Below are positions 2,932 to 48,219 of a stretch of DNA of 64,000 bases, in pieces. Within the stretch, counting starts at the first letter, position 1; each line of letters opens with the position of its first letter. The notes beneath the pieces were generated by a model, which saw only the letters and a list, made by a program, of their open reading frames with translations, had not been told where the DNA came from and made no database searches. A program made the position numbers and the translations under genes. The stretch comes from Roseateles oligotrophus (GTDB lineage: Bacteria > Pseudomonadota > Gammaproteobacteria > Burkholderiales > Burkholderiaceae_C), in assembly GCF_014204525.1 (NCBI RefSeq), contig NZ_JACHLP010000005.1, forward strand, positions 94,326 through 158,325. The letters are read 5' to 3'.

Positions 2932-3888
2932 ATGAAAATCACCACTCTCATCCCGGCCTACAAAACCAAGTACATCGTCGAGTTGCTGGTTTCCTTGCAG
3001 CGCCAGACGCGGCCCAGCAACCGCATCGTGTTCTCGGACGACAGCCCTGACGGCGCCTACACCGCCTTGCTCGACAGCGAGGCCTTGCGCGCGGTGCGCC
3101 AGCAACTGCCCATCGAGGTTTATGCCGGCCCGCGCAAAGGGGCGTATGAGAACTTCAAACATCTGGCGCGACTGTGGGGCGGGGGCTCCGAGCTGGTCCA
3201 CCTGTTGCTGGACGACGACGTGATGTTCCCGGACTTCTACGAGCGCCATCTGCAAGCCCATGCCTCGGGCCGCTTCTCCTGCAGCATCAGCGGGCGCTGG
3301 ACGGCCAATGAACAAGGCCAGCCCATCGGCGTGCAACCCCTGCCGGCAGGTGTGGCGGCCTCGCGCGAGCGCATGCTCTCGCTCAGCGATGAGGTGCTGT
3401 TCATGAGCACCGTGCCTCTGTGTACCAACTGGCTGGGCGAGTTTTCCAATTGCGTGATGCGGGCCGAAACCCTGCCGCTTCTGTTTGAGCCCCGCTTCGC
3501 CGATGTGTCTTATGCGGGGCTGTGGGATCTGGGTTATTTCCTGGCCGCCAGCACGCAGGCGCCGGTGGCCTATATCCAAGACCGCCTGGGTTATTTCCGT
3601 ACCGGTGGCGACAATAATTCGTCTCAGTTGTTCGGCAAATTCATGAAGGCGGCGCACCTGGGTTATGTGGCCCTGGCCGTGGGCGGCGAGCGTATCGGCA
3701 AACTTAACAAGGAACAGGCGCGCCAATGCTATGCCGGCATCGCACCCGCGTTGCTGCAGCGTTATGCCAGTCAGGCCGATATGCAGCCCTTTTGTGTCAT
3801 CCTGGCGCGCATGGCCGAGGGCGACGCGCAGGCGGTGCAGGCGTTCGAGCAGGCCTGGGCCCACTACCTTCGCGAGCAGGGCTTCTGA
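2932..3888 (+). CDS. Glycosyltransferase family 2-like protein
   Basis: 318 residues, cytoplasmic, GT-A fold. The N-terminus ITTLIPAYKTKYIVELLVSL is the usual nucleotide-sugar-binding beta-alpha start. SDDSPDG (35-41) and DDD (94-96) are the expected acidic motifs, the latter the metal-binding DxD equivalent. There are no membrane segments. The substrate cannot be read from sequence. It is the first gene of a three-gene cluster (acyltransferase, then glycosyltransferase-methyltransferase), so it probably helps build a surface glycan or decorate a protein. No strong ribosome site precedes the ATG, but the frame begins naturally at the conserved N-terminus. A dispersed element begins 2 bp after the stop codon. 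Confidence 0.85.
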   Translation: MKITTLIPAYKTKYIVELLVSLQRQTRPSNRIVFSDDSPDGAYTALLDSEALRAVRQQLPIEVYAGPRKGAYENFKHLARLWGGGSELVHLLLDDDVMFPDFYERHLQAHASGRFSCSISGRWTANEQGQPIGVQPLPAGVAASRERMLSLSDEVLFMSTVPLCTNWLGEFSNCVMRAETLPLLFEPRFADVSYAGLWDLGYFLAASTQAPVAYIQDRLGYFRTGGDNNSSQLFGKFMKAAHLGYVALAVGGERIGKLNKEQARQCYAGIAPALLQRYASQADMQPFCVILARMAEGDAQAVQAFEQAWAHYLREQGF

Positions 3889-3890
3889 GA

Positions 3891-4049
3891 TGAAACTGCC
3901 CCTCGCCCAATCTCGCCCCGCTGGACGCGGGCGAGCCTGGTCGGTCCCCCGAGGGGACGGCGATGCTTGGCGGATCGACCGCCAAGCACATCGCCAGCGC
4001 GGGCCGGCTCGGGAGCGGCCCAGCGCTCGGCCCGCAATACTCAGTTTCA
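3891..4049 (+). repeat. Dispersed structured intergenic element, copy 1
   Basis: This 159-bp element is bounded by TGAAACTG and CAGTTTCA and starts 2 bp after the stop codon of the glycosyltransferase. A 156-bp copy lies inverted at 46915-47070. Arms visible inside are CTCGCCC/GGGCGAG, GTCCCC-CGA-GGGGAC (3944-3958), a central 10-bp stem TGCTTGGCGG-ATCGA-CCGCCAAGCA (3964-3988) flanked by GGCGA/TCGCC, and GGGCCG/CGGCCC. The central stem differs in sequence between copies but pairs in both. It may be a REP/MITE-like element or a structured 3' RNA. Confidence 0.8.
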
Positions 4050-4088
4050 TGCGTCGCGGGTGCCGTGAACACAGAATGGACAACTGAA

Positions 4089-4733
4089 ATGCAAAGACGT
4101 TATGAACGTTTGCTGGGCCTGATCTCACGCAGCAATCCGCTCGATCTGGACGCCTGGACCCGCATGCTGCTGGTGCAGTATTTCTTCCATGTCTCGGAGC
4201 GCCAGCGCCTGGAAATCGTCGAAGTGGCGGGTGCGCGGCGTCTGCTCAATCTGTTGACGCCCACGCATTTCAAGGGTCAGGGCCGCATCCGGGTGGCGGC
4301 CACCGCCGTGTTCGGCGTGCCGCGTTCGCCGGGCAGCTATGGGGCCAGCTATGTGGAGGCGCGCACGCCCGACTCCCTGATCGAGGTCGGCCCCGGCACG
4401 GTGTTCAACAACCGCTGTGTGCTGATCTCCGAAGGCGCCAGCATCCGCTTCGGCGCCGACTGCCTGATTGGCCCCGAGCTGCATGTGATGGACAGCAACT
4501 CGCATGACCTTGTGCTTGAGCGGCGCCGCCAGCCCGACCCGCGGCCGGCCGCGGTCGAGATCGGCAACCAGGTCTTTATCGGCTCGCGCGTCACCCTGCT
4601 CAAGGGCGTCAAGCTCGGTGCGGGCTGTGTGGTGGGGGCGGGCGCCGTGCTGCGCCCCGGTTTTGAGGCCCCGCCCAACTCGGTGGTGATGGGTAACCCC
4701 GCTGTTGTTCTTGGACAAACCCCCAATTCCTAA
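4089..4733 (+). CDS. Hexapeptide-repeat (LbH) acyltransferase
   Basis: 214 residues. The C-terminal half (about 95-205) has left-handed beta-helix hexapeptide repeats: IEVGPGTVFNN, IRFGADCLIGP, VEIGNQVFIG, VKLGAGCVVGAGAVL. It ends in the VVMGNPA motif typical of sugar O-acetyltransferases of the NodL/LacA/CysE-like class. HVMDSNSHDL resembles the catalytic-histidine loop of maltose/galactoside acetyltransferases. It probably acetylates a sugar made by the flanking glycosyltransferases. The ATG at 4089 lacks a clear ribosome site. An in-frame GTG 24 bp upstream is possible, and the frame stays open back into the dispersed element. Twelve bases separate it from the next gene. Confidence 0.8.
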   Translation: MQRRYERLLGLISRSNPLDLDAWTRMLLVQYFFHVSERQRLEIVEVAGARRLLNLLTPTHFKGQGRIRVAATAVFGVPRSPGSYGASYVEARTPDSLIEVGPGTVFNNRCVLISEGASIRFGADCLIGPELHVMDSNSHDLVLERRRQPDPRPAAVEIGNQVFIGSRVTLLKGVKLGAGCVVGAGAVLRPGFEAPPNSVVMGNPAVVLGQTPNS

Positions 4734-37977: not shown

Positions 37978-38089
37978 CTATGTCTTGCTTGAACAGCGCG
38001 ACGTTTGAATCGCAGCAGCAAAGCGAGGTAGAAAGGCCAGGCAGCAATGCAGGGCCCGGATACCAAGGCAAAGCTGGTGCACAAGGTTC

Positions 38090-38165
<76 letters not shown>

Positions 38166-38195
38166 AGAGTTTTAGTGGTATATAATTAAAACTCT
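38166..38195 (+). other. Spacer hairpin, Ala-Glu copy 1
   Basis: AGAGTTTTA and TAAAACTCT form a perfect 9-bp stem right after the Ala CCA. The 12-base loop contains TATAAT. The equivalent spacer in the second array copy has a different 9-bp stem. Confidence 0.7.
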
Positions 38196-38267
38196 GAATG
38201 GCGCACTGTTCAGGATATAGCGAAAATACTTGTGTATAATTGCTGTAGAATAAGAAAAGAAGGTTTA

Positions 38268-38343
38268 GTCCCCTTCGTCTAGAGGCCTAGGACACCACCC
38301 TTTCACGGTGACTACAGGGGTTCGAATCCCCTAGGGGACGCCA
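38268..38343 (+). tRNA. tRNA-Glu (TTC), copy 1
   Basis: 76 bases with encoded CCA. Acceptor GTCCCCT/AGGGGAC, D-arm TCGTCTAGAGGCCTAGGAC, anticodon loop CTTTCAC with anticodon TTC, T-loop GGTTCGAATCC. Confidence 0.97.
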
Positions 38344-38348
38344 AGTTT

Positions 38349-38390
38349 GATAAGGCTTGGTAATTATCTAAAGATAATTGCAAACTTATC
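38349..38390 (+). other. Spacer stem structure, Glu-Asp copy 1
   Basis: The outer stem GATAAG/CTTATC encloses the inner hairpin AATTATC-TAAA-GATAATT (38362-38379). The second array copy keeps the outer stem but has a different inner hairpin. Confidence 0.7.
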
Positions 38391-38424
38391 GATAATTTGA
38401 TGTTATAATGACATCTTGTTATCT

Positions 38425-38511
38425 GGAGTGGTAGTTCAGTTGGTTAGAATACCGGCCTGTCACGCCGGGGGTCGCGGGTTCGAGTCCCGTCCACTCCGCC
38501 AACAAATAGTT
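38425..38511 (+). tRNA. tRNA-Asp (GTC), copy 1
   Basis: Acceptor GGAGTGG/CCACTCC, discriminator G, encoded CCA. Anticodon loop CTGTCAC with anticodon GTC; T-loop GGTTCGAGTCC. The coordinates run from the first acceptor base to the CCA end. Confidence 0.96.
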
Positions 38512-38629
38512 TTGTGCAGCAATAAAATGCTGTATAATACAAAGATAGTTTAAATTGAAGCTTAATAACTTCGGTTTGAATTAATGAAATTTGACTTGAA
38601 CGGCGCGGTTCCGCGGTCAGCAATGATTC

Positions 38630-38705
<76 letters not shown>

Positions 38706-38707
38706 AG

Positions 38708-38734
38708 ATTTCAGCCGGCCGGGCTGGTTGAAAT
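38708..38734 (+). other. Spacer hairpin, Ala-Glu copy 2
   Basis: ATTTCAGCC and GGTTGAAAT pair over 9 bp (one wobble) immediately after tRNA-Ala, in the position of the different 9-bp stem of copy 1. Confidence 0.65.
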
Positions 38735-38771
38735 TGAGTGTGGCGCGCGGTTCAGGGAATAAGAAGGTTTA

Positions 38772-38847
38772 GTCCCCTTCGTCTAGAGGCCTAGGACACC
38801 ACCCTTTCACGGTGACTACAGGGGTTCGAATCCCCTAGGGGACGCCA
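38772..38847 (+). tRNA. tRNA-Glu (TTC), copy 2
   Basis: Same 76-base sequence as copy 1, anticodon TTC, encoded CCA. Confidence 0.97.
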
Positions 38848-38852
38848 AGTTT

Positions 38853-38894
38853 GATAAGGCTTGGCAGCTGCGCGAGTAGCTGCAATAACTTATC
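38853..38894 (+). other. Spacer stem structure, Glu-Asp copy 2
   Basis: The outer GATAAG/CTTATC stem is kept. The inner hairpin is GCAGCT (38864-38869) with AGCTGC (38878-38883), unlike the AT-rich inner hairpin of copy 1. Confidence 0.7.
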
Positions 38895-38922
38895 GATGTT
38901 GTGAGCTTAGGCTTGCGCATCT

Positions 38923-38999
38923 GGAGTGGTAGTTCAGTTGGTTAGAATACCGGCCTGTCACGCCGGGGGTCGCGGGTTCGAGTCCCGTCCACTCCGCCA
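38923..38999 (+). tRNA. tRNA-Asp (GTC), copy 2
   Basis: 77 bases, same as copy 1, anticodon GTC, encoded CCA. It is the last gene of the array; a terminator follows 7 bp later. Confidence 0.97.
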
Positions 39000-39006
39000 G
39001 CATTTG

Positions 39007-43975: not shown

Positions 43976-45976
43976 TCAGCCGGCCGCGTAGATCGCGTCC
44001 ACCTCGGCGCTCAGTTCCAGCCAGCGCAGTTCGGCGGCCTCCAGCTCATCGTGAATGCCTTTCAGGCGCTTGCCCAGATCGGCGATCTGGGTCGGCGAGG
44101 CCTTGCCCGAAGCCAGCTCGGCCTCGATGTTGCTGCGCTCATCGGCCAGCTTGTTCAGCTTGGCGTCAATGCCCTCCATCTCGCGGCGCAGCGGCTTGGT
44201 CTGCTCCGCCAGCTTCTGGCGTGCCTGGCCGCTGAGCTTGCGGTCCTCGCGCACGGCGGGCTTGGCGGCCGGGGCCGCGGCGGCAACAGGGGCTGGCGTT
44301 GTGCTGGCCATGGCCGCGCCGGCCTTGCCGCCATTCTTGGCCGCTTGCTTGGCGGCGTCTTTGGCCGCCTTGGCCGCCTCTTTGGACTGATCCAGCAACC
44401 AGCGCTGGTAGTCGTCCAGGTCGCCGTCGAAGGGTGCGACCTCACCCTTGCTGACCAGCCAGAACTCGTCGCAGACCTCGCGCAATAACGCCCGGTCATG
44501 GCTGACCAGCATCACCGTGCCTTCAAACTCGTTCAGCGCCATCGACAGCGCCTCGCGGGTGTTCAGGTCCAGGTGGTTGGTGGGTTCGTCCAGCAGCAAG
44601 AGGTTGGGGCGCTGCCAGACCAGCATGGCCAGCACCAGGCGAGCCTTTTCTCCGCCCGAGAGACTGCCGACCTGCTGGTTGACCATATCGCCGACAAAGC
44701 GGAACTGGCCCAGGAAGTCGCGCAACTCCTGCTCGCGCGCATTCGGGCTGCATTCCTTGGCCAGGCGCACCATATGCGAGAGCGGGCCTTCGTCGGGCCG
44801 CAAGACATCCATTTCCTGCTGGGCGAAATAGCCGATGGTCAGGCCCTTGCCCTCGGTGATCTTGCCGCCCAGGGCGCGGTGCATGCGTGCCACCGTCTTG
44901 ACCACGGTGGACTTGCCCTGGCCGTTGGCGCCCAGGATGCCGATGCGCTGGCCCGCCAGCACCGAGCGGTTGATGCCGCGCACGATGATGTTCTCCACCC
45001 CATCGACTTCGTAGCCGCAGGCCACCTCGTCGAACATCAGCATGGGGTTGGGCAGATTGAGCGGCTCGCGGAACTCGAAATTGAAATCCGCGCTGGCCAG
45101 CACGGGCGCCAGCTTTTCCATGCGCTCCAGCGCCTTGACCCGGCTTTGTGCCTGCTTGGCCTTGCTGGCCTTGGCCTTGAAGCGGTCGATGAATTTCTGC
45201 AGATGGGCGATGCGTTCCTGCTGCTTGCCAAAGGCCGCCTGCTGCTGCTCCATGCGCTCGGCGCGCATGGCTTCAAACGCCGTGTAGTTGCCGCCGTAGC
45301 GATGCAGCTTGGCTTCGTCCAGGTGTAGCGTTACCTTGGTGATGGCGTCGAGGAATTCGCGGTCGTGGCTGATGATGATCAGCGTGCCGTCGTAGCGCTG
45401 CAGCCAGGCCTCCAGCCAGACCAGGGCGTCCAGGTCCAGGTGGTTGGTGGGCTCGTCCAGCAGCATCAGCTCGGCCGGGCACATCAGCGCGCGGGCCAGT
45501 TGCAAGCGCATGCGCCAGCCGCCGGAGAAGCTGTTGACCGGCGCCTCGACCTGCTCGCCCTTGAAGCCCAGGCCCATCAGCAGGGCTTGGGCGCGCGGCT
45601 TGGCGTCGAAGGCGCCGGCGTCCATCAGCAGCGCGTGGGCATCGGCCATGGCGTGGCCGTCCTCAAGGACCTCGGCGTCTTCCAAGGCCTTGCGCGCGGC
45701 CATCAGGCGCACATCGCCCGCCAGCACGAAGTCGGTGGCGGATTCTGCAGTCTCGGGCATGTTCTGCGCGACCTCGCCCACCGCCCATTGGCGCGGGATG
45801 TCGACCTCGCCCTTATCGCTCTGCAGCCTGTCGGTCAGCAGGGCGAAGAGGCTGGACTTGCCGGCGCCGTTGCGTCCCACCAGGCCGATTTTCTCGCCCG
45901 GCTGCAGGGTGACGGAGGCATCGTCCAGAACGATCTTGGCGCCGCGGCGCAGCGTGATATTGCGCAGCGTGATCAT
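43976..45976 (-). CDS. ABC-F family ATPase (YheS/Uup-type)
   Basis: 666 residues, two ABC domains and no membrane segments. Walker A sequences are GLVGRNGAGKSS and GILGANGQGKST; signatures are SFSGGWRMRLQLARAL and SLSGGEKARLVLAML; Walker B with LLLDEPTNHLDL occurs twice. The inter-domain PtIM-like linker (about 235-290) has AAFGKQQERIAHLQKFIDRF. An Ala/Lys-rich segment (about 530-580) and a C-terminal coiled coil (about 590-655) resemble YheS/Uup. ABC-F proteins act on ribosomes. The start overlaps the prmB stop by 4 bp. Confidence 0.9.
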   Translation of the reverse strand: MITLRNITLRRGAKIVLDDASVTLQPGEKIGLVGRNGAGKSSLFALLTDRLQSDKGEVDIPRQWAVGEVAQNMPETAESATDFVLAGDVRLMAARKALEDAEVLEDGHAMADAHALLMDAGAFDAKPRAQALLMGLGFKGEQVEAPVNSFSGGWRMRLQLARALMCPAELMLLDEPTNHLDLDALVWLEAWLQRYDGTLIIISHDREFLDAITKVTLHLDEAKLHRYGGNYTAFEAMRAERMEQQQAAFGKQQERIAHLQKFIDRFKAKASKAKQAQSRVKALERMEKLAPVLASADFNFEFREPLNLPNPMLMFDEVACGYEVDGVENIIVRGINRSVLAGQRIGILGANGQGKSTVVKTVARMHRALGGKITEGKGLTIGYFAQQEMDVLRPDEGPLSHMVRLAKECSPNAREQELRDFLGQFRFVGDMVNQQVGSLSGGEKARLVLAMLVWQRPNLLLLDEPTNHLDLNTREALSMALNEFEGTVMLVSHDRALLREVCDEFWLVSKGEVAPFDGDLDDYQRWLLDQSKEAAKAAKDAAKQAAKNGGKAGAAMASTTPAPVAAAAPAAKPAVREDRKLSGQARQKLAEQTKPLRREMEGIDAKLNKLADERSNIEAELASGKASPTQIADLGKRLKGIHDELEAAELRWLELSAEVDAIYAAG

Positions 45977-46875
45977 TGATCCTGCGCCTTCGTGGTGTTC
46001 TTCAAAGCGTCTTTCAACAAGGCTTCACGGGTGACAAGCAATACGACATCCTCGCCGGCCGAGGTCTCCATCCAGGCCACTTCCAGCTGCGGGAATGCCG
46101 CTTCAAAAAATTCGCGTTCGTTGCCGATTTCCAGCACCAGCACGCCATGCTCCGTCAGGTGCTCGGGCGCTTGTTCGAGCAGATGGCGGACGAAGTCCAT
46201 GCCGTCGTGGCCACCGGCCAGGGCCAGCGCGGGCTCGGCCCGGTACTCGGCCGGCAGGGCGGCCATGGACTGGCTGTTGACGTAAGGCGGGTTGCACAGA
46301 ATCAGGTCGTAGACCCGGCCCACGGCGGGCGCCAGGCCGTCACCCTGCAGCAGGGTGATGCGGTCGGGCAGGCCATGGGTGTCCACATTGATGCGGGCGA
46401 CGGCCAGGGCGTCGGCGCTGAGGTCGATGGCGTCCACCGTCACCTCGGGCCAGGCCAGGGCGGCCAGCACGGCCAGGCTGCCGTTGCCGGTGCACAGGTC
46501 CAGCACGTCTTGCGTCTCGTCGCTGAGCCAGGCGTCGATGCTGGCATCGGCGATCAGCTCGGCGATGAAGCTGCGCGGCACGATGACGCGCTCGTCCACG
46601 TAGAAGGGCACGCCTTGCAGCCAGGCCTCCTGGGTCAGATAGGCGGCGGGCTTGCGGGTGGCGATGCGCTCTTCGATCAGGGCGGCGACGTCGGCCAGGG
46701 TCTCGGCGTCCAGCTCCTCCTCGGCGTTCTCGTCCAGGCTGTCCAGCGGCAGCTCACAGCGCCACAACACCAGCCAGGCGGCTTCGTCGAAGGCATTGGT
46801 CGTGCCATGCCCAAAAGAAACGCCCGCCTCGGTCAGGCGGGCGGCGTGCATCTCGATGCAGGAGATCAGTTTCAT
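45973..46875 (-). CDS. prmB: Ribosomal protein L3 glutamine methyltransferase
   Basis: 300 residues. N5-glutamine methyltransferase of the HemK/PrmB type: VLDLCTGNGSLAVLAAL is the SAM loop and DLILCNPPYVN the NPPY active site; VPRSFIAEL is the PrmB-type motif. It modifies ribosomal protein L3 during 50S assembly. The frame is open upstream through the dispersed element, but conservation begins at the ATG at 46875. A genuine ribosome partner function sits next to an ABC-F gene, with 4-bp overlap. Confidence 0.93.
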   Translation of the reverse strand: MKLISCIEMHAARLTEAGVSFGHGTTNAFDEAAWLVLWRCELPLDSLDENAEEELDAETLADVAALIEERIATRKPAAYLTQEAWLQGVPFYVDERVIVPRSFIAELIADASIDAWLSDETQDVLDLCTGNGSLAVLAALAWPEVTVDAIDLSADALAVARINVDTHGLPDRITLLQGDGLAPAVGRVYDLILCNPPYVNSQSMAALPAEYRAEPALALAGGHDGMDFVRHLLEQAPEHLTEHGVLVLEIGNEREFFEAAFPQLEVAWMETSAGEDVVLLVTREALLKDALKNTTKAQDQ

Positions 46876-46914
46876 ATCAAATGTCCATGGTGCTAACTCG
46901 TCACTCACGAGGCA

Positions 46915-47070
46915 TGAAACGGCAGTGTTCGGGCCGAGCGCCGGGCCGTTCCCAAGCCGGCCCGTCGGAGGCCGCTTGCGGCTCAATGCCGCATGTGGCC
47001 TCGTCCCCACGGGGGACCGACCAGGCTCGCCTGCGTTCAGCGGGGCGAGATTGGGCGAGGGGCAGTTTCA
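46915..47070 (-). repeat. Dispersed structured intergenic element, copy 2
   Basis: 156 bp, inverted relative to copy 1 (3891-4049). Read on the minus strand it begins TGAAACTGCCCC, whose TGA is the dapE stop codon itself, and ends CGTTTCA. Conserved parts: CTCGCC/GGCGAG, GTCCCC-CGT-GGGGAC and GGGCCG/CGGCCC. The central hairpin is TGCGGC-ATTGA-GCCGCA within GAGGCC/GGCCTC: different bases from copy 1 but fully paired, with nearly the same 5-base loop. Confidence 0.8.
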
Positions 47071-48219
47071 CTTCAGCAGGTTCTCCAGCGTGCGTCGGTA
47101 GATATTCTTCAGGGGTTCGAGGCTGTCCACGGGCAGGTACTCGTCGATCTTGTGGATGCTGGCATTGATGGGGCCCAGCTCCACGACCTGGGGGCAGATC
47201 TTGGCGATGAAGCGGCCGTCCGAGGTACCGCCCGTGGTCGAGAGCTGGGTCTGCAGGCCGGTCTCGGCCAGGATGGCGGCGCCAACCGCCTCGCTCAAGC
47301 TGCCGATCGGGGTCAGAAAGGGCTCGCCGCCCAGGGTCCAGTCCAGCGCGTATTCCAGGCCATGGCGGGCCAGCAAGGCCTGTACCTTGGCCTTCAGGCC
47401 CTCGGGCGTGGACTCGGTGCAGAAGCGGAAATTGAAGTCCAGCAGCATCTCGCCGGGGATGACGTTGGTGGCGCCGGTGCCGGCGTTGATATTGGAGATC
47501 TGGAAGGTGGTGGCCGGGAAATAGGCGTTGCCATCGTCCCAGTGCGTGGCCACCAACTCGGCGATGGCGGCGGCCGCCTGGTGCACCGGGTTGCGGGCCA
47601 GCTGCGGGTAGGCCACATGGCCTTGCACGCCCTTGACGCGCAGCTTGCCGCTGAGCGTGCCACGGCGGCCGTTCTTGACCATATCGCCGACCTTCTCCAC
47701 CGAGGTGGGCTCGCCGACGATGCAGAAGTCCAGGCGCTGGCCCTCGGCCTTGAGGATCTCGCAGCAGACCTTGCTGCCGTCGACCGAGGGGCCTTCCTCG
47801 TCGCTGGTCAGCAGGAAGGCGATGCTGCCGGCATGGTCCGGGTGGGCCTGCACAAACTCCTCCACCGCCACCACCATGGCGGCCAGCGAACCCTTCATAT
47901 CGGCGGCACCGCGGCCGTAGATGCGGCCCTCGCGGTAGCTGGGCACAAAGGGGTCGGAGGTCCAGGCGTCCAGGCGGCCGGGCGGCACCACATCGGTGTG
48001 GCCGGCGAACAGCAACACGGGGCTGTCGGTGCCCAGGCTGCCGGGCTTGATGGCCCAGAGGTTCTGCACCCGAAAAGAGTCGGGGCCGCTGTCCATGGCG
48101 CGCAGCTCAAAGCCGAGGGCGGCCAGGCGCTCGCCGATCAGGGCCTGGCAGCCGGCGTCCAGCGGGGTGACGGAGGGGCGCGCGATCAGCGCTTCCAGCA
48201 GGGCAAGGGTTTGGCTCAT
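47068..48219 (-). CDS. dapE: Succinyl-diaminopimelate desuccinylase
   Basis: 383 residues, M20 metallopeptidase fold with two zinc ions. Motifs: [48 protein letters not shown] (catalytic and metal Glu pair), and [12 protein letters not shown]. It removes succinate to yield LL-diaminopimelate in lysine and peptidoglycan synthesis. dapC and dapD lie upstream on the same strand with a pilus ATPase gene between. Its stop codon coincides with the first bases of the dispersed element. Confidence 0.95.

Follow-up and report, generated by a model that had tools for sequence, protein, structure and literature searches.

Several short intergenic repeats of bacteria are folded, as is the element described here. 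Among them, ERIC, NEMIS/Correia and BOX have other sequences and belong to other taxa. BOX is also modular, a property shared by this element. To our knowledge, there is no case of ERIC, NEMIS/Correia or BOX being inserted into a stop/start overlap. Such repeats are themselves already known; new here are the structure, the wide signature, the lineage's optional P3 form, and the junction rule.

In Betaproteobacteria, the Beta-proteobacterial repeat element (BRE; Hot et al. 2011, PMC3110155) is described as a GC-rich repeat of 75–91 bp, mostly intergenic, with some copies in coding sequence. According to the same account, BREs are in tandem at some loci, their copy number differs among strains, and mobility is suggested by the authors; the passages devoted to BRE give no fold, insertion site, or mechanism (PMC3110155). 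Measured against this description, the element is alike in its short form (76–82 nt), its tandem spacing (89–90 nt), its divergent forms (80–91 nt), its high GC content, and its taxa. The tandem habit of BRE, with few bases between copies, is matched by the element in relatives but not in the window, where the copies (134–137 nt) exceed the length of BRE and carry an extra stem and a tail. The element is probably of the same family as BRE, as judged from the published description. One BRE locus lies beside lexA and, as described, is common to only three Bordetella species (PMC3110155); accordingly, the absence of the element from all 11 lexA loci found in other genomes is uninformative on BRE identity elsewhere. 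The Bor-1 stem-loop family of Bordetella (PMC2267715), likewise compared by its description, resembles the element in being intergenic, structured, and present in many copies, with a length of 93–117 bp.

Two copies of the element in the window

The window, which is the whole stretch of 64,000 nt analyzed (G000:C5:94326-158325), comes from a Burkholderiales genome of Paucibacter/Roseateles type, 5.34 Mb in 30 contigs, and holds two copies of the element, copy 1 at 3891-4049 on the plus strand and copy 2 at 46915-47070 on the minus strand (Table 1). Both copies, their central stems, and their P3 loops (ATCGA in copy 1 and ATTGA in copy 2) are present in the sequence as the first-pass annotation gave them. 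Copy 1 is positioned between the stop of gene 2932-3888 and a start codon at 4089. Copy 2 is positioned between dapE (47068-48219) and prmB (45973-46875), gene names being read from translations. The likeness of the two copies extends rightward well beyond GTTTCA, up to the start codons at 4089 and 46875, and copy 2 shares 96% identity with a copy at C4:70220 across 203 nt. An Rfam search over the window at the gathering score returns tRNAs only and nothing on the element; at 3600-4400, with matches up to E 10, two chance-level matches appear, neither over the element.

Elsewhere in the window, positions 1-2547 of the minus strand hold a gene of 24-nt repeats, leucine-rich-repeat-like by eye, with 29 overlapping 300-nt registers at ≥60%. 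At 38087-39002, three tRNA genes form a block present as a tandem duplicate, with 99–100% identity between the copies.

Table 1 Features of the two element copies in window coordinates
Feature	Position	Strand	Remarks
Left head TGAAACTG of copy 1	3891..3898	+	Two bases past the stop codon of gene 2932-3888
Copy 1 core, P1-P2-P3-P4	3898..4034	+	Model match G000:C5:98223-98359
P1 stem, copy 1	3904..3943	+	Fold and covariation
P2 hairpin GTCCCC-CGA-GGGGAC, copy 1	3944..3958	+	Fold and covariation
P3 central stem, optional module with interchangeable base pairs	3959..3995	+	Covariation; missing in short forms
P4 hairpin, inner signature CT(T/C)GGG-N1-2-CGGCCC(G/A)GCG	4000..4034	+	Copy 1 has the C and A variants
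Lineage-specific tail of copy 1, ATGGACAACTGAA at its end before start codon 4089	4035..4088	+	
Right TGAAACTG of copy 2, within prmB start	46867..46874	-	
Copy 2 tail	46876..46929	-	
Copy 2 core, P3 = GAGGCCACATGCGGC-ATTGA-GCCGCAAGCGGCCTC	46930..47063	-	Model match G000:C5:141255-141388
Left TGAAACTG of copy 2	47063..47070	-	Overlaps the dapE stop codon

Anatomy and covariation of the fold

On the strand used by the first-pass annotation (hereafter the reading strand), the element consists of GCCCCTCG, stem P1, hairpin P2 (CCCC-CGA-GGGG), stem P3, and hairpin P4. None of 200 dinucleotide shuffles folds as well as either 201–202 nt copy stretch (z = −4.1 for copy 1 and −3.4 for copy 2), and the complement of copy 1 likewise surpasses all 200 (z = −3.5). 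The proposed terminal stem TGAAAC/GTTTCA is not borne out: in 19 copies, the mean pairing run of the left and right ends is 5.89 within a copy and 5.73 when ends of different copies are re-paired, and 268 of 1000 re-pairings do equally well.

The element occurs in a window form of ~135 nt and a short form (63 rows), in which P3 is missing and P1 is shorter; 38 of the 63 rows are 79 nt long. P3 is found as exchangeable blocks among copies. Thus the central stem does vary in bases while keeping its pairing, as had been noted from the two copies, but the point that P3 is an optional module had been missed. Copies from other genera and families have a wholly recoded outer P4 stem with pairing kept (AAGTCGTTC/GAACGACTT, GATCCGCC/GGCGGATC), and the inner signature is unchanged. 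With regard to the terminal inverted repeats of MITE-like elements, ends like GACAGCCC/GGGGTGTC are seen in fewer than 10 of the 63 short rows, as judged by eye. Tandem arrays are present in relatives, with periods of 122, 89–90, 80–91, 57–60, and 111 nt, and are absent from the window.

Several variants were observed in passing. At window positions 4010-4023 (copy 1), L015, and L082, a T and a G of the P4 inner signature are jointly replaced by C and A, so that the strand on which this pair is a wobble switches between the two states. Extra hairpin blocks, such as GCTGCGGCCAAGGCCGCAGC and GGCCATTGGCCTCTGGCCAATGG, lie inside copies L017, L024, and L025 of the own genome and may belong to a second family of hairpin repeats. 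In G127 (L090-L099), the arrays give way to a distinct conserved tail longer than 100 nt (GAGGCCCGATGTGGAGTCGAGCCGTACTCGGCGAGCGACT...).

Across the short and long units, pairing of P1, P2, and, where present, P3 is preserved via double changes. The alignment of short units (A7, 47 of the 63) has 97.8% of cells paired, nine pairs with double changes, and a score of 0.138, a value reached by none of 500 shuffles (mean 0.058) and well above slid versions of the structure (maximum 0.045). The alignment of 34 long units (A5), which was fitted to the model, has 95.3% of cells paired, 23 pairs with double changes, and a score of 0.165, compared with 0.059 for shuffles and 0.042 for slid controls. The near-invariance of P4 in A7 is partly due to sampling, 38 of the 47 units having been retrieved with the P4 pattern. 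Because related sequences may beat shuffles without any structure, the slid control and the recoded P4 stems carry most weight. The covariation that the first-pass annotation anticipated is therefore strong in short and long units alike, and a constraint on the fold is supported.

Copies in the genome and in relatives

BLAST searches of the own genome return 43 pieces at E ≤ 10, 30 of them below 1e-4. A covariance model (R1) made from 21 of 25 extracted segments gives 32 matches at E ≤ 1 and 29 at E ≤ 3.4e-4. Two pairs among the 29 are halves of a single copy, leaving ~27 copies in the genome. At E ≤ 0.01, 43 of 150 genomes of the family, the own included, match the covariance model. Hence the pair in the window belongs to a large set, contrary to the possibility, left open earlier, that only two copies exist.

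Across the whole order, at least 5 of 399 genomes (own included) match a second model (R2), for which the best 11 candidates per genome were scored. The 16-base signature CTTGGGN{1,2}CGGCCCGGCG is found in 46 of the 399 (own included): three or more times in 31, twice in four, and once in 11, with a maximum of 144 in G319. The reversed control pattern matches once in each of 14 genomes and never more than once, so single signature matches can be due to chance. In a pattern scan yielding at least 120 stretches, the genera among the matches listed are Roseateles, Pelomonas, Paucibacter, Aquabacterium, Rhizobacter, Methylibium, Leptothrix, Sphaerotilus, Ideonella, Piscinibacter, Rivibacter, and Rubrivivax, along with a MAG labelled Methylotenera and other MAGs. 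Plasmid records give no match to a window copy, and a divergent form of the element matches plasmid records of Acidovorax, Rhodoferax, Azoarcus, and Variovorax. IMG/VR contains 84 viral-contig stretches with the P4 signature, which represent either host DNA in provirus contigs or real carriage. When nine signature strings were compared with the published literature, one occurred, in two unrelated papers.

Filled and empty sites

The copy between dapE and prmB has TGAAACTG on both sides, and empty sites have it once, in identical or near form. The left TGAAACTG of copy 2 is identical to the sequence at the prmB start. The empty site of G144 reads CTGCTGCTGTGAAACTGATC, and the filled site reads CTGCTGAAG-TGAAACTG-element-TGAAACTG-ATC. 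In addition, the three bases left of TGAAACTG are altered from CTG to AAG, so pure duplication does not account for the left junction. A search with copy 2 matched at least one flank in each of the 17 further genomes of this genus, and in none of them is an element match found beside the dapE/prmB flanks (E ≤ 1e-5). The two flanks are adjacent in 11 of the 17 genomes (the matches overlap by 8–9 nt in seven and end 20 nt apart in four), lie 0.2–2 kb apart in three (G153, G157, and G158), and are represented by one flank in three (G159, G162, and G164).

Fourteen other loci of the own genome were queried in four relatives. For eight of the 14, one or more of the three genomes aligned have an empty site (14 comparisons, without G160), and L005, L010, L013, and L015 are filled in G144, as judged from match positions. 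Direct repeats vary in quality within this genus: TGAAACTG is exact at dapE-prmB, and L001, L006, and L008 have only imperfect CTGAnRTG repeats. At L013, the element is flanked by the same two genes in the own genome and G144, with opposite orientations and different P3 bases; the orientation difference reflects two landings or an inversion. In twelve reverse comparisons, one or more of three genomes have an empty site at 8 of 14 G144 loci; one of these copies directly follows CTGAAGTGA, and another has GATGAG on both sides. Among eight genomes of genus g91, the three filled sites have TCAT or TCATG on both sides and the five empty sites have one TCATG. As TCATG lies left of most short-form units, recombination between shared TCATG motifs and target duplication are indistinguishable here. 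Copies between nuoA and nuoB (as read) were also seen in two genomes (L079 and L029), decayed in the window's genome and full in the other.

The first-pass annotation had read the copies as a selected fold. The constrained fold stands, given the many copies and the covariation, but that reading does not cover the spread of the element: it is dispersed and moving, it is present at some orthologous sites and absent from others, and direct repeats flank it.

Placement at stop/start junctions

Gene contexts were determined with a home-made gene finder tried on the window, six of 79 long-group contexts (inside or far) being left out. Long-form copies follow a gene end on the reading strand in 69 of 73 contexts; in 21 of these, the genes converge, so that the element has a gene end on either side. 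For the short form, contexts were taken from two short-form groups by a crude proxy (left gene ≤75 nt from the motif), under which the complement is transcribed in 30 of 45 contexts, genes are convergent in eight, and the reading strand is transcribed in seven. Over all groups, placement between divergent genes is found in only 4 of 179 contexts.

In 33 co-directional short-form contexts with both genes near, the stop beside the element is always TGA. The adjoining stop is ATGA in 18 of the 33 (55%, compared with 18% of 455 in the background), and the adjoining start is ATGA in 21 (64%, compared with 42%). The start codon is 55–57 nt from the P4 motif in 24 of the 33, i.e., 3–4 nt from the core edge with GAGGGG. 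CAT is found no more than 8 nt to the left of the core in 40 of the 63 short rows, and at 3–4 nt in 39. These junction statistics fit insertion into overlapping ATGA. One copy lies inside a cutA frame, as read (L373). The neighboring genes that were read are of unrelated kinds.

Strand asymmetry of mismatches

On the reading strand, 247 distinct units (of 264 matches) have 159 A.C and 89 G.U mismatches, a count in which copies are not independent and which includes a few weak matches and opposite-strand matches inside arrays. The A.C/G.U numbers are 20/4 in the own genome, 97/57 in other long units, 23/18 in G127, and 19/10 in short units. P4 by itself runs counter to the trend, with 24 A.C and 28 G.U. 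An A.C pair on the reading strand is a G.U or G.T wobble on the complement, hinting that the complement is the folding strand. The orientation relative to transcription is opposite in the two lineages and the wobble-tolerant strand is the same; the tolerant strand is thus independent of transcription. The A.C excess could be of mutational origin. The pattern, suggestive only, points more to a folded strand of DNA or an opposite-strand transcript, and suggests that a folded DNA strand fits at least as well as mRNA.

Discussion

The element has many dispersed copies, folds with compensatory changes, and filled and empty orthologous sites; direct repeats flank it at the best-resolved sites, and it is placed beside stop/start codons. 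We read it, with moderate confidence, as a small non-autonomous mobile element of Betaproteobacteria spread by a putative enzyme. The mobilizing machinery would recognize the hairpins, probably in the form of a single folded strand of DNA, and copies would exchange stem modules. If the element enters an overlapping stop/start (ATGA or GTGA) and duplicates a short target, both genes would stay intact, and surviving copies would sit there because both genes are spared. In short-form lineages, the downstream start would then have GAGGGG, from the element's complement, at Shine-Dalgarno distance; in the lineage of the window, that role may fall to the tail. On the best reading, the fold serves the element's own spread and the element is tolerated at gene junctions, with putative effects on translation being likely. 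A more ambitious version, which we put forward tentatively, would have class-wide tiny mobile elements that specifically target stop/start junctions, carry signals maintaining translation of the downstream gene, and travel as a single folded strand of DNA by means of an undescribed enzyme recognizing the P2 and inner-P4 signatures.

Alternatively, the fold might be kept for a function in mRNA, either as intercistronic or 3' hairpins that protect, process, or uncouple cistrons, or as a leader on the complement in which the GAGGGG Shine-Dalgarno sequence is switched by CCCCUCG of P2. The position of the element, nearly always beside a gene end and rarely between divergent genes, and the start codon 3–4 nt from the core edge with GAGGGG in most co-directional short-form contexts are in its favor. 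However, transcription runs in opposite senses through the element in the two lineages and the wobble-tolerant strand does not change, the neighboring genes read have no kind in common, and the alternative helix CCCCTCG/CGAGGGG lacks covariation, by eye, at its variable pair (columns 6 and 38); we consider an mRNA function possible but doubtful. Matching changes could also arise from DNA mechanics with no selection, through correction of imperfect palindromes by template switching and exchange of hairpin blocks among copies. The P3 blocks, interchangeable as wholes, and the extra hairpins of L017, L024, and L025 speak for such a process, but P1, P2, and outer P4 vary pair by pair across genera, the loops and inner P4 signature are almost fixed, and the A.C/G.U asymmetry is strand-specific, making this account unlikely.

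A REP-type element moved by a resident single-copy Y1 (RAYT-like) transposase is very improbable. There is one Y1 gene in the own genome and one to three in 11 of 13 other genomes searched, and the hint of a folded strand would suit such an enzyme, but none of the 22 Y1 loci (in 12 of 14 genomes) has the element at E ≤ 0.01 (best 0.10), and the Y1 genes examined have other conserved ends. With no copy flanking any of these loci at that threshold, we rejected identity with REP/RAYT. Separately, a Y1 transposase gene neighbors a gltB-like gene in several genera (L350-L353) and has conserved ends of its own close to ATGGGGTCAGAGT/GACTCTGACCCCAT.

A report of 2011 dealt with intergenic repeats abundant in betaproteobacteria, in passages that give no fold, boundary, or route of spread (PMC3110155). 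What is probably the same family now has a covariation-supported structure, an order-wide signature, pairs of filled and empty sites, and a landing rule. The search for the mobilizing enzyme and tests of operon expression are thereby made direct. The element also shows a route by which insertions can part overlapping genes with neither broken.
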